A stretch of DNA of 64,000 nt from Apostichopus japonicus (Eukaryota; Echinodermata; Holothuroidea; Aspidochirotida; Stichopodidae): contig NC_092576.1 in NCBI RefSeq assembly GCF_037975245.1, positions 4,170,001 through 4,234,000 of the forward strand. Direction: 5' to 3'. The translations under genes were made by a program, and so were the position numbers. The notes below the pieces were generated by a model. It made no database searches, was not told the DNA's origin, and saw only the letters and a program-made list of their open reading frames with translations. Positions 15,276 to 57,545 of this stretch are shown piece by piece; positions within the stretch are counted from its first letter, which is position 1; every line of letters starts with the position of its first letter.

Positions 15276-24165
<8,890 letters not shown>

Positions 24166-37321: not shown

Positions 37322-40300
37322 ATGGCTTCATGGTTATTAATTGTGATTGTTGGCTGTTGGGTAGGAACATCGGTGAGAAGTGAAACATATGACGAAAAGT
37401 GTTTATTTAGTTATTCAGGTAAGTGCAAACATTTTTTTTGTATTTTTGTTCCCATTACTCGCAAATCGCCTCTTTATGTTTAAGTTCAGCCATTCACGAT
37501 TACTTAAGATTCTTTGCGCTTTGGCACTTCCGAGTTACTTATCCGTAAGTACTATCGATGCAACAAAAGATATACAATAATCACTTTCAGTTTGTTATAC
37601 CCACTGGGTACTTAATTTTCGTCGACACAAAGGTATTGTCCATTATATTTAAAACGCGATATATTAAAGTTATGAATCAGGAGTTTTTGGTTCATCAACA
37701 AAATCATTCTGCCACGTTAAATATTAGGTTTTCGAAAAACACCCCACACGGTTCATGGAATGTTGGCAACAAATGCTCACTTTTAAAATAATTTAACTTG
37801 ATGAGTTTTCGGATTAGTTCTGTTTAAGTATTTATCTAACATATTTGCTGACTTATAACCTAATTGAAACCTAAATGTGATCTAATTCTGATGATACCGT
37901 GCAAGTATACAAGGATAGAGGGAGGAGACTTATCGATAGCTCGATAGCTCGATAACTCGATATTTCGGTAGGTCGGTAGGTCGGTAGGTTTAAATTAATC
38001 AGCACTACATATACTTGATAACATAATATGTACTTATTATATTTTTGTTTCTTCTTTTCTACCTTTGACTTACAGGAATGCTTACTAATATCACTTTGTG
38101 GCCAAACCCTCCTCGGTACAAATCAGTTGAACACGTACATGCCGATCTCCTGTTCAGTATGTTTGAAATTATATGTTACACTATTTCACTATTTTAGTTA
38201 AAGCATATATCAAGACAATGTATTTCACACCAGGTGGGTTTTGTTCGCCTATTTAGAGACAAAACTGGCCTACATTTCAGCTGAGCATCTTCTAACATTA
38301 ACATATCCTTAAATAAATGCAGAATATAAATTGTCCTCCTGGCATATAACAAAGAACAACTGCACAGCGCGACGGCAGTGCAATATACAAAATAGCGGAG
38401 CGTTCATTTAGATGGATAAAATTGTTATATACTGATTCGCTTTTATCTGACATTTGTAAAGTACAAGCAGTTCTTATCATGTATACTGTGCGCGCACTTT
38501 TACTGGGATGTACGCATATGTTTTGTTCATGTATAACTGGATATCAAACAGTTCCGTGCTAAACAAGGATACAATCACAATAATAATCTTAAGGTACGTA
38601 ATTGATCCAAGACAACAGTCTGACGTCATCATACAAAGTTTAATGTATTTTACGTTGCGGCAAGGAAGCACACTCTGTCTGCTGATGTCAATGACTAAAA
38701 GCAAAGCTGCATACCGTGTTCAAGAGATTTGTTGTTGTTTACATATGTGGTTTGTGTTACTGTGGTTTACATTATCATGTTATGTCTACAGGGGTTTGGT
38801 TACACTATGCCAATTACAAATGTTAACAACTTGATCAATGTCTGTACATCAAAACGTGAACCAACAATACTTACATTAACATTTAATATATGAAGGCGTT
38901 TCAGATATTTTATCATGCATAGTTGTCACTCAGGGTTTCAACATTGTAGAAAACTATATGAAATGCTGCCCATTTTTGAAATGGTACGTTCCAAAAGTGC
39001 CGACTCGTATAGAATGCCATGGTTCTGAGAAACTTTTATAGCTTCAGAAAATCGTAATATGACGATTCTCAACCTGTTTTTACTCTTTTTTTCTTTTCTT
39101 TTTTAAAATTAGCCAGATCCGTCGAGGTACTTACTGTAACAGGCTACGTGAAAAATGAAAAGACTGGGTTTATTCTCCCCTTTCTTGCGTCTGTTTGCGA
39201 TCTGTCTGTAAGTTTTTGTCCGATTTACAAAGGAGGTGAGTTAAGCTTTAATCGATATTACATCGTAACAATTTGTACTGTTCAATTTCATTTCCTGTTA
39301 ACGAGTCCCTTTACAAAGTCCTATAATTAATTTATTCAAGTGTCATTTAACATGAGTGAAATGAAAACTACAAAGTTTATCAGGCCTGTTACAAGTTCGA
39401 GTTATCAAGATTAATACGTTGGAAGACGTGAATTTGCAAGTCACTGCGACACAGACCTCTGTTAAGAAGATGAGACCTCAACAACAGTCGTAAATTTTTA
39501 ATTCGCCATGGATTTTCTTCGGCTGATAAACTTTAATATATCAAATGTGTTTCTATAGTTTTATATACTCCAGACAATAACGTCAGCCCCAGTACCCTGG
39601 TGGTCCATACTGCTTGGCCTTCATCTTTTTTTCCTTTTTAGAGGGGATGGTGATAGACATTTACTCATCATTATAATAACAAACTTTTTACCAGGGGGAA
39701 GGGGGGGGGGGGTGAGGTTACGGACACCTGCTGGCTATGACCCTACATCACCATTTATTTCCGAAGTCACATGGCCAAGTGGAAACAGTGCTAGGCGTAG
39801 GTCTATCCAGTTTTAGTGTGCCGCTGTTCATTTAGGGTAATGATCGGTTCACTGCATTTTGAAGTCTATATACTCACCTTGCTCCGGTAAATTAAACGCA
39901 GAGACATAAGTGAGTGGCTGTATCATTTATCGGTAACTTAACAGGTGTCACCATCATTTCTCAGTACACACTGCCCAATGAATCCATACCAGAAAAAATA
40001 AATACTTCTATCCTATAGGAAAACAAATCTGACAGTCGCCCACATCACCCCTCCCCCCCCCCCCGCCCCAATAAAACTATTCCACAAAGCTCTCCACCTC
40101 CAAAACGTAACTTTTTACCCCGAAAGCGAACCACAGGTCTGCCCGAGGGGAGGGGTGGATTGGGGCAAAAACCCTCGAACCCCCACCCGCTTCGGAAACG
40201 GGCCTGGAGTGAGCACACGACTACTTTAAACAAGAGTGAATGATAACAGAGCGAGGTACCTTAATAGTTATATTGAAAAAGATTATGGTTGCCTAGCAAC

Positions 40301-42117
40301 AAATTCATGTGCCCCATGATTGTGCAGACAATAGATATTAAATTGTAATTCAATTCAATTAGGCAATCTTCCGATTAACGTTCTGTGGTCTTATCAATTG
40401 GACCACAAAACGTAAAACATCTCAGATTCGTAAATTTGGTATATGTTACGTTTTCGTGTTATTTTTCGAAAACAAACTATTTCACCAATTGATTGATTGA
40501 TTGATTGCTTTTTTTTCGCTTGAAGTTTTCGATATGTGGTCCTACTACACTTCTCCAGTGAGTCACTAACACATGATGTTTCCTCGAGCGCTCTCCCTGT
40601 ATGTAAAGGAGACATATGAAAATTATTCAGGAGATATCCAACATATACACATTGCTCAGGATATCTAGTTGCAGTGTTGCACGAGAAGTTCAACAACATG
40701 GTTGTGACGTGATGCGCAAGCACTTTTATCATAGCCTCATGCAGTAGAACACAAAACAGGCGTTCCATGAAAAAAAAAAACTAGGCAGAAGAAATACTAG
40801 AGAAATCAAGTTATGTTAACAAAACTATTACTGCTGCGTGAAACATATACGTGTATCTTTAAACTGGTATTATCATCTTAACAACTACCAACGCCGGTTC
40901 CAAGCTACCTATCTTTCTATTACAAATTGCCAGGGTTCAAGTTTAATTTGAATATTCCATATTTATGACTGATATTGTTGGCGTACATTGTCGAATACCA
41001 GAACATAGTTAATTTGATAAATTCTTTTCCTTTTTACTTTACAGAAAAGAGATCGATTGATTTTCAACAATACGTCACTTCCGCATGGGAAGCAAATGTG
41101 AGTACACAGGGTTCCCTTATAGGAGATAAGTGTGAATGCACACGATTCCTGCGTGGGAAAGGAATGTGACTGAGTACACACGATTCCCTTATGGGAGATA
41201 AATATGAATACACACGATTCCTGCATGGGAAAGAAATGTGAGAACACAGGATTCCCTTATAGGAGATAAATGTGAATGCACACGATTCCTGAGTGGGAAA
41301 GGAAAGTGACTGAGTACACACGATTCCCTTATGGGAAATAAATGTGAATACACTCCTGCATGGGAAAGAAATGTGAGAACACAGGATTCCCTTATAGGAG
41401 ATTAAAGTGAATGCACACGATTCCTGCGTGGGTAAAAAATGTAAGTACACAGGATTCCTGTATGTGAAAGAAATGTGACTTCACGCTATTCCCTTATAGG
41501 AGATAAATGTGAATACACAGGATTCCTGCATGGGTAAAAAATGTAAGCACACAGGATTCTTATATGGGAAAGAAATGTGACTTCACGCTATTTCCTTATA
41601 GGAGATAAATGTGAATACACAGGATTCCTGAATGGGAAAAAATGTGAGTACACAGGATTCCCTTATATGAGATAAATGTGAATTCACACGATTCCTGCAT
41701 GGGTAAGAAATGTGACAAAGTACACACGATTCCCCTATGAATCATATCTTGTGCATTACATGAAAAATATATTTCATGTAACATGATCCTACTTGATTAG
41801 TATCGAACCACTTTGTCAAAGTGGATCAAATATCTACTGAAAGGTTTTGACAGCAGCGTGGAATGAAACCGCTACTTGGTTTTTCTAATGTTATTAAGTG
41901 GTATACCGTAGATTCAATTTTGCGCTTCAGGATCCATCAATCAATATAGGTTCATTCTTCCTATCAACAGGTGCCAAGTTCTGTAGTTGCAAAGTTACTG
42001 GACGAAAACGAAGGAATCATTGCAGAGGTTTCTGTTAAAAATTGTACACTTGTCAATCCAAAGGGGCAACTGAAGTCTAAACAGATGGTCACCAGGATCA
42101 TCTTGATTTACACATGA
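37322..42117 (+). CDS. Secreted ML-domain lipid-binding protein 1
   Basis: Five exons: 37322-37418, 38076-38156, 39113-39235, 41045-41097, 41971-42117, phases 1,1,1,0, encoding 166 residues. The start gives a classic signal peptide (MASWLLIVIVGCWVGTSVRS). I prefer it to an in-frame ATG at 37271, which would add 17 basic residues before the hydrophobic core. The mature part has the ML (MD-2-related lipid recognition) layout: an early Cys (EKCLFSYSG), beta strands, VCDLSVSFCPIYKGG with the Cys pair and CPI.KG signature seen in NPC2 and GM2A, then IIAEVSVKNC at the end. Length fits the family (about 140-190). Family members bind sterols, gangliosides or lipopolysaccharide outside cells or in lysosomes; the ligand here cannot be told. 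A paralogue with the same exon phases is at 53102-57545. Poly(A) signal AATAAA follows at 42199. Confidence 0.85.
39690..40210. repeat. G/C-run region in ML1 intron 3
   Basis: A G-run at 39697-39711 and a C-run at 40051-40063 frame sequence with transposon-like features (CCCGAGGGGAGGGG, AACGGGCCTGGAGTG). Probably a decayed MITE; boundaries not resolved. Confidence 0.3.
41082..41750. repeat. Minisatellite built from ML1 exon 4 donor
   Basis: About nine units of 68-72 bases running directly out of exon 4. The exon/intron junction (GCATGGGAAGCAAAT, then GTGAGTACACAGG) is itself the first half-unit: later units read TGCATGGGAAAGAAATGTGA and so on. One copy at 41641-41656 is identical to the real donor context (AATGTGAGTACACAGG). 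Each unit also carries ATTCCCTTATAGGAGATAAA. Confidence 0.9.
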
Positions 42118-42198: not shown

Positions 42199-42204
42199 AA
42201 TAAA
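42199..42204 (+). terminator. Poly(A) signal of ML gene 1
   Basis: AATAAA, 82 bases after the TGA stop, in a good position to end the transcript. Confidence 0.55.
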
Positions 42205-42604: not shown

Positions 42605-42651
42605 GAAAATCGTAATGAGTTGGAAAATCAAGAACAGTGAAAAAACTTTCA

Positions 42652-42723
42652 GCCTCCACCGGGATTCGAACCACGGGCCTCCCGCTCTGTACGCGGACAC
42701 CCTAACCACTAGGCTATGGACGC
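42652..42723 (-). tRNA. tRNA-like cloverleaf (anticodon ACA), likely pseudo/SINE
   Basis: Exactly 72 bases fold as a standard cloverleaf. The acceptor GCGTCCA pairs with TGGAGGC (one G-G mismatch). The D arm GCCT/GGGT encloses AGTGGTTA. The anticodon stem TCCGC/GCGGG carries loop GTACAGA with U33 and anticodon ACA. The T loop TTCGAAT is intact, but the T stem CGTGG/CCCGG has two mismatches. A T6 run that could stop RNA polymerase III begins six bases after the 3' end. Anticodon ACA (Cys codon UGU) is abnormal in animals, and the T-stem damage points to a pseudogene or the head of a SINE. No second copy was seen in the window. Confidence 0.4.
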
Positions 42724-43550
42724 TGATTGTATGTCCAGAGGTTCGAAACCGGTAAGGAAGATCGTAATTCCACTGTAGGCGTTTGTCACCTATATCGAAC
42801 AATACTAGTTCTGTTTTTGGTGACATATTTTGCCCTACTCTAGAGATCAAACATGATGCTATCCAACTCGAAAATCATTTGTGATTCCTAAAGCCGGATC
42901 TCGAAAGAGATACTTTGAACAGACTTTATACTTTATGTATATATATATATATATATACCTGAAATTAGCCGAAAACGGTATAATACTCTATAATCGACTT
43001 TTGACCTCAAACCAAAACTTCGAAGAGGAAGAGTGAACATTAACGTCACTGTGTGAGTTTTCTTAACCTCAAATATATTTGATGCATTCAAAGCGAAAAA
43101 TAAAATACAGACATGCGTAAATGGCGTTTGGAAAATCCACCGACCAATTGATAAAACATGACAGACCTGGCTATGTATATTTTAAGTCAATACGTGAAGT
43201 TAAGAAAGACTCACGAATCGATCTATACGACAACGCATGAAAAAATAACTCATTACATTGTTTTAAATTTGACATCGTCAAGGAATTAAAAAGAAAAAGG
43301 GTATTATAAATATCAACCAACAACACAATGGATTCGAATTTTACTTTTATCAAAATATATACCAATCAAAATTTCTACCTGCTTACTGCCAGAGTTAGTC
43401 TAAAATTCGGTTATAAAAGAAAACACATAAACAGTCATTCAAACAATGAGGTCACTACAGTAATTACTTCCTCTTAAGACACTTTTAACTGTTTAATCGT
43501 TTGTCATTTTACAACTTGAATTTTTTTCTTCTAAATTTGAATTCCCAGGA

Positions 43551-53101: not shown

Positions 53102-57545
<4,444 letters not shown>

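Follow-up and report, generated by a model that had tools for sequence, protein, structure and literature searches.

Tandem arrays at exon-intron junctions are already known from lancelets and humans. In amphioxus they have been termed mirages, minisatellite-like tandem duplications of exon-intron boundaries described in the globin genes BflGb6 and BflGb9 and in Adh3, with units of 150-160 bp in the globins and 10-72 bp in Adh3 and with haplotypes that differ in length (PMC3087553). In the accessible text of that report RT-PCR suggests undisturbed splicing, and its authors allow that the copies may act as cryptic sites. The list has been extended by TnC and by the extending paper's own PGBD5 case, with splicing reported or suggested, in the passages available, to be normal (PMC3902484). 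The VNTR in intron 18 of human ABCA7 has a 25-bp unit, flanks exon 18 and includes its donor; the excerpts of the report give retention of one unit in 2 ± 1% of transcripts, independent of array length, and a length-dependent skipping of exon 19 (PMC5954066). The minisatellite of human IFI6 (6-16) gives multiple splice donors, according to the available parts of two reports (PMC4526556, PMC2572611).

In this work we have analyzed a stretch of 64,000 nt of Apostichopus japonicus DNA (the window) in which a minisatellite adjoins exon 4 of a gene, and this array is a new example of the kind. Our best reading, to which we assign a probability of about 0.72, is that the array originated from the exon junction and is a minisatellite of the mirage type, largely inert and perhaps with low leakage into splicing. 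The genes concerned, in window positions, are:

37322..42117, + strand: ML-domain gene 1, five coding exons, 166 amino acids, boundaries placed by eye
37322-37418, 38076-38156, 39113-39235, 41045-41097 and 41971-42117, + strand: coding exons of gene 1
41045..41097, + strand: exon 4 of gene 1, 53 nt, entry phase 1, exit phase 0
56776..56828, + strand: exon 4 of ML gene 2, 53 nt, same phase as exon 4 of gene 1, donor AAG/GTGAGC

The coding sequence of gene 1 comprises 501 nt from ATG to TGA, and its frame is open when the true exon 4 donor is used in the spliced model; this 166-amino-acid open frame is consistent with regular splicing, and no more. Against PF02221 the spliced protein scored 22.7 bits (E 1.4e-4), exactly the Pfam gathering cut-off of 22.7, so the product is a probable lipid-binding ML-domain (MD-2-related lipid recognition) protein with a borderline pass. 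The acceptor tract of exon 4 is 94% pyrimidine. Exon 5 is probably the last exon, judging from an AATAAA at 42199, 82 bases beyond the stop codon, a motif that is frequent in the window (154 matches, 138 expected). Past the gene, near an AT repeat, a tRNA-like element lies on the minus strand at 42650-42724 (Rfam tRNA, 47.2 bits; tRNA-Cys with anticodon aca by ARAGORN), and its unusual anticodon suggests a tRNA-derived repeat rather than a working tRNA gene.

Gene 2 is a presumed paralog. Its fragment reached 16.3 bits against PF02221, under the cut-off of 22.7, and it shares with gene 1 the CPI-KG at the end of exon 3 and the EKR at the start of exon 4; the protein ends of the two exons 4 are barely alike. 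Tandem Repeats Finder (TRF) returned zero tandem repeats in the intron that follows exon 4 of gene 2. Its intron 3 holds a degenerate array of 41-48-bp units at 55979-56212, about 118 bases 3′ of exon 3 and excluding the exon boundary. When the gene 1 protein was used to search its own genome (one assembly, 671.6 Mb in 35 contigs), five of five matches were the locus itself, in a search insensitive enough to miss gene 2 as well. A phage collection gave 25-base matches only (E 9) and a plasmid collection gave none, as expected since the gene is eukaryotic.

The array runs from the end of exon 4 into intron 4. TRF reported periods of 34, 68 and 102, all within 41079-41739. Its main parts are:

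41079..41729, + strand: minisatellite made of 19 half-units, A and B types, each about 34 bp long (29 to 38)
41079..41097, + strand: exonic half of unit 1, the last 19 nt of exon 4 (registered test 0/3675, see below)
41079..41352, + strand: two clear copies of a 140-bp higher-order repeat, of which the first starts inside exon 4
41421..41624, + strand: 102-bp higher-order repeat, two copies

The half-units were cut chiefly at a TTCC anchor, and the count of 19 includes the exon unit. Those of the A type resemble TTCCTGCATGGGAAAGAAATGTGAGTACACAGGA and those of the B type TTCCCTTATAGGAGATAAATGTGAATGCACACGA. Unit 1 (41079-41111) consists of the exon 4 end with its donor and crosses the predicted boundary at 41097/41098; it is the first member of the 140-bp unit, which is built of four half-units in the order A, B, long A, B. 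The two 140-bp copies (41079-41217 and 41218-41352) are 89.3% identical over 140 columns, and the block after them (41353-41488) shares 84.3% with the second copy and 80.7% with the first. The 102-bp copies, 41421-41522 and 41523-41624, are 94.1% identical. Compared with its closest match, unit 1 shows 85% identity, 16 of the 18 other units 91-97%, unit 8 79% and the far-edge unit 19 87%; against the units scored as B, unit 1 is 65-74% identical. In the gene the exonic half counts 19 nt, as it does in the unit at 41644; the other nine of the ten A-type units compared have 20. On the minus strand a stop-free frame of 138 codons (41064-41480) runs antisense through the array and is probably a by-product of the repeat.

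The membership of the exon tail in the array was assessed with a registered test, in which contexts preceding a GT were aligned at the donor against the ten A-type units, the null being the 3675 other plus-strand contexts of the window. The exon tail (41079-41097) gave a best score of 13 and a mean of 9.5, and none of the 3675 contexts reached either value (null maxima 9 and 5). The reading in which a coding tail resembles an unrelated satellite by chance draws on the same 19 nt taken out of register, whose score of 23 was equalled by 1 of 1000 shuffles and by 7 of 4866 19-mers sampled from the window (best place 25). It fails against the registered result and against the whole 33-nt unit 1, which even with no fixed register was reached by 0 of 1000 shuffles and 0 of 4864 sampled window stretches, and we reject it as extremely improbable. 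The likeness ends near 41079: the head of exon 4 was matched to the array as well by 986 of 1000 shuffles when no register was fixed, and in register 1433 of 2000 shuffles reached its score and 647 of 2000 that of its last 12 nt. An array reaching into the exon head was rejected on these comparisons, although a local alignment extended by 10 nt gains a single point (24 against 23).

Outside the array the longest match in the window is a 14-mer, and a search of the genome, of a kind that skips very common words, returned the locus itself alone (one match). At that sensitivity, the array looks local rather than part of a dispersed family, and an unrelated repeat family as a better partner of the units than the exon found no support in these searches, limited in sensitivity as they are. 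The earlier note had proposed that the minisatellite amplified the gene's own exon-intron junction, with the exon 4 end plus donor as the first half-unit of an array continuous with the exon. Both statements are supported by the registered homology, by the 89.3% identical repeat that begins in the exon and by the array-free presumed paralog.

The direction of copying was likely from exon to array, to judge from gene 2, whose exon 4 has the same length, phase and donor position and no array; the comparison is with a single divergent gene of this window. A 20th base would shift the exon frame, so the 19-nt form found in the gene fits the ancestral length. The opposite order, in which the array arose first as an ordinary intronic minisatellite and the exon 4 end was overwritten or converged on it by gene conversion or a splice shift, could account for the 85% identity of unit 1 next to the 91-97% of 16 of the 18 others (units 8 and 19 excepted), and for the exon 4 protein ends of genes 1 and 2, which are so little alike that the tail in gene 1 could have been replaced. 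The lower identity of unit 1 is equally expected from coding constraint and edge effects, and the boundary units of the BflGb6 mirage likewise escape homogenisation in the accessible text of its description (PMC3087553), so that boundary units are the less homogenised ones in both systems. Since the 53-nt length, the phase and the donor position of exon 4 equal those of gene 2, and the exonic half lacking the extra base of nine of ten A-type units is the one in the gene, we hold the array-first order to be quite unlikely.

Origin from the exon junction probably proceeded as follows. A short segment that joins the final 19 nt of exon 4 to the first 14 nt or so of intron 4, donor included, would have undergone tandem duplication into that intron; the units would have split into A and B half-units, and later expansion would have taken place as 140-bp and 102-bp higher-order units, by unequal exchange or slippage. 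The copy inside the gene would have stayed the functional exon end, kept in frame by its coding role.

The strength of the true donor and of its copies was evaluated with a donor score matrix from the literature, with U1 pairing energies computed alongside. The sites that matter most are:

41098..41103, + strand: true 5′ splice site AAT/GTGAGT, predicted, T at -1, score 3.96, U1 -6.9 kcal/mol
41441..41446, + strand: candidate decoy AAT/GTAAGT, score 3.24, U1 -6.8
41644..41649, + strand: candidate decoy AAT/GTGAGT, score 3.96, identical to the true donor
41703..41708, + strand: candidate decoy TGG/GTAAGA, score 3.04, U1 -9.2 (the best in the array), in another register within the unit

The true donor is a weak one: the donors of exons 1 and 3 of gene 1 and of exons 3 and 4 of gene 2 score 7.56, 7.87, 8.28 and 8.61 as a set, all above it, and that of gene 1 exon 2 is also weak at -2.2, below the 3.96 of exon 4. 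Among the 33 GTs between 41099 and 41750, six score at least 2 and the rest at most 0.08; the highest value, reached once, is that of the true donor. The remaining moderate sites are 41543 (score 2.80), 41238 and 41373 (2.32 each). The identity of 41641-41656 with the true donor context 41095-41110, which the earlier note had pointed out, is confirmed by reading the letters. Its claim of many near-perfect decoy donors is not: six of 33 GTs are moderate, and at the donor register of the 18 later units the GT is kept in 17 and the G at +5 in five, so 13 have lost it (counts made by hand, with units 3, 7 and 19 read apart from the alignment's gap). The U1 counts were not taken as decoy counts, the energies at 41102, 41445 and 41648 probably deriving from an overlapping donor four bases away.

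Compared with the rest of the window, the enrichment is modest. Sites scoring at least 2 make up 6 of 33 GTs in the array and 132 of 3677 on the rest of the plus strand, and at the true donor's score the figures are 1 of 33 and 46 of 3677; Fisher values were set aside, since the copies in a tandem array do not count as independent. A total of six moderate donors within 652 bp is reached by 17 of 1240 other overlapping windows of that size (mean 1.37, maximum 8), which makes it unusual; a site of at least the true donor's strength is ordinary, 483 of the 1240 containing one or more. A second minisatellite, at 16977-17894 (36-bp unit, about 25 copies), contains eight GAG/GTTAGT donor-like sites (score 3.55) and nine sites scoring at least 3, so such strings are not special to the exon 4 array; it ends about 30 bases before an exon at approximately 17926-18110 and, as read, does not reach it. 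That exon is long-chain acyl-CoA dehydrogenase-like (phmmer E 1.1e-9; Pfam Acyl-CoA_dh_N 12.8 bits, under its cut-off). Concealment of the decoys by RNA structure was considered and dropped, the predicted probability of the 9-mer being unpaired amounting to 0.020 at the true site and 0.006 to 0.14 at the six decoys.

The consequences of downstream donor use were read from the frame. Past the true donor it stays open for 23 sense codons before it meets a stop:

41167..41169, + strand: TGA, first in-frame stop past the true donor

This upholds the expectation of a stop within about 24 codons, and the accompanying statement that decoy use truncates the protein holds for all 11 alternative donors tested out of the 33 array GTs: each leads to a premature stop, seven within the extension and four by a frame shift with the stop in exon 5. 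With the six best decoys, 68, 203, 271, 373, 474 and 533 nt separate the stop from the new junction downstream of it. Transcripts with premature stops are subject to decay by the 50-55-nt rule, and with these distances decay is predicted. Acceptor-like sites also occur in B units at 41500 and 41602, with 81% pyrimidine, the value of the exon 5 acceptor; paired with the donors 41543 and 41644 they could in principle frame poison exons, one of 43 nt and one of 42 nt, the latter with a stop in the exon 4 frame.

A rival reading gives the array a regulatory role, with decoy use regulated or length-dependent and the array acting as a brake in which premature-stop forms decay and array length sets protein dose. 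Competition between donors is possible: the true site is weak, has an exact equal in 41644 and is surpassed in U1 pairing by 41703; in addition the array holds more moderate donors than is usual (six, against 17 of 1240 windows), the predicted RNA structure does not hide them, and the stops of all 11 alternative donors come early, those of the six best ones 68 to 533 nt before the junction. Precedents fall on both sides. In the excerpts at hand, ABCA7 array length tracks lower expression and skipping of the next exon, with the donor one unit down used at about 2%, and this one-unit retention is independent of array size (PMC5954066); IFI6 employs two downstream repeat units as donors (PMC4526556); and the amphioxus mirages are reported, as far as the accessible texts go, without disturbance of splicing (PMC3087553, PMC3902484). 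Taking into account also that 13 of the 18 later units lack the +5 G, we regard a brake as unlikely. In a rheostat version of this reading, U1 bound along the array would compete for exon 4, given that the best copies match the true donor in weakness; some transcripts, in a proportion set by array length, would be spliced downstream and decay, and the dose of a lipid-recognition protein would vary between individuals or cells. We regard this version as decidedly improbable. The functional claim in general, to which the earlier note's suggestion that array length could tune splicing belongs, loses ground through the amphioxus and ABCA7 precedents and because most copies have decayed, and is kept alive by IFI6 and the weak true donor.

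A largely inert array of junction origin would instead mean that splicing takes place at 41097/41098 in nearly all transcripts, which we consider most likely. The true donor would be favoured by the strong acceptor of its exon, by being transcribed ahead of the copies and by the loss of the +5 G from most of them. The copies at 41238, 41373, 41441, 41543, 41644 and 41703 would probably yield at most a low level of a longer exon 4, and such leaked forms should decay.

The comparison with described systems places the locus closest to the mirages. As in amphioxus, where the available text describes many copies with AG/GT signals, copies of the exon-intron boundary stand beside the true one: the repeat unit spans the predicted boundary and copies the splice site (GT in 17 of 18 later units), and its length of 34 bp, with higher orders of 140 and 102 bp, falls among the 10-160 bp reported (PMC3087553). 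The locus differs in that most copied donors have decayed at +5 and that two successive higher-order patterns are present. Units of BflGb6 are given as 81-100% identical in the accessible part of the report, whereas the half-units here differ more (65-74% for unit 1 against B units). Length instability and normal splicing are both on record for amphioxus in the same passages, while the present array is known from sequence alone. With the splicing-related VNTRs of the ABCA7 and IFI6 type it shares an array that abuts an exon and holds the exon's true donor in its first unit. As far as its report is accessible, a decoy one unit downstream causes a frameshift and premature stop in ABCA7 too, but that array is described as starting with the GT of the donor, and the present unit also takes in 19 nt of coding exon; length variation and exon 19 skipping are proven in ABCA7. 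In IFI6, too, extra donors come from a minisatellite at the end of an exon, but there, in the available accounts, the downstream donors are used and make isoforms; at the present locus each of the 11 alternative donors tested leads to a truncated protein.

Exon 4 of gene 1 offers a clear case in which an exon-intron junction apparently gave rise to a minisatellite, and a presumed paralog nearby is free of the array. The accessible text on mirages puts forward arrays of such junctions as a way for new introns to arise (PMC3087553). For a human disease gene, altered splicing has been linked to a VNTR that contains the donor, in the parts of the report at hand (PMC5954066). If its decoys are silent, the locus would constitute a natural test of what picks the real donor among near-identical ones.
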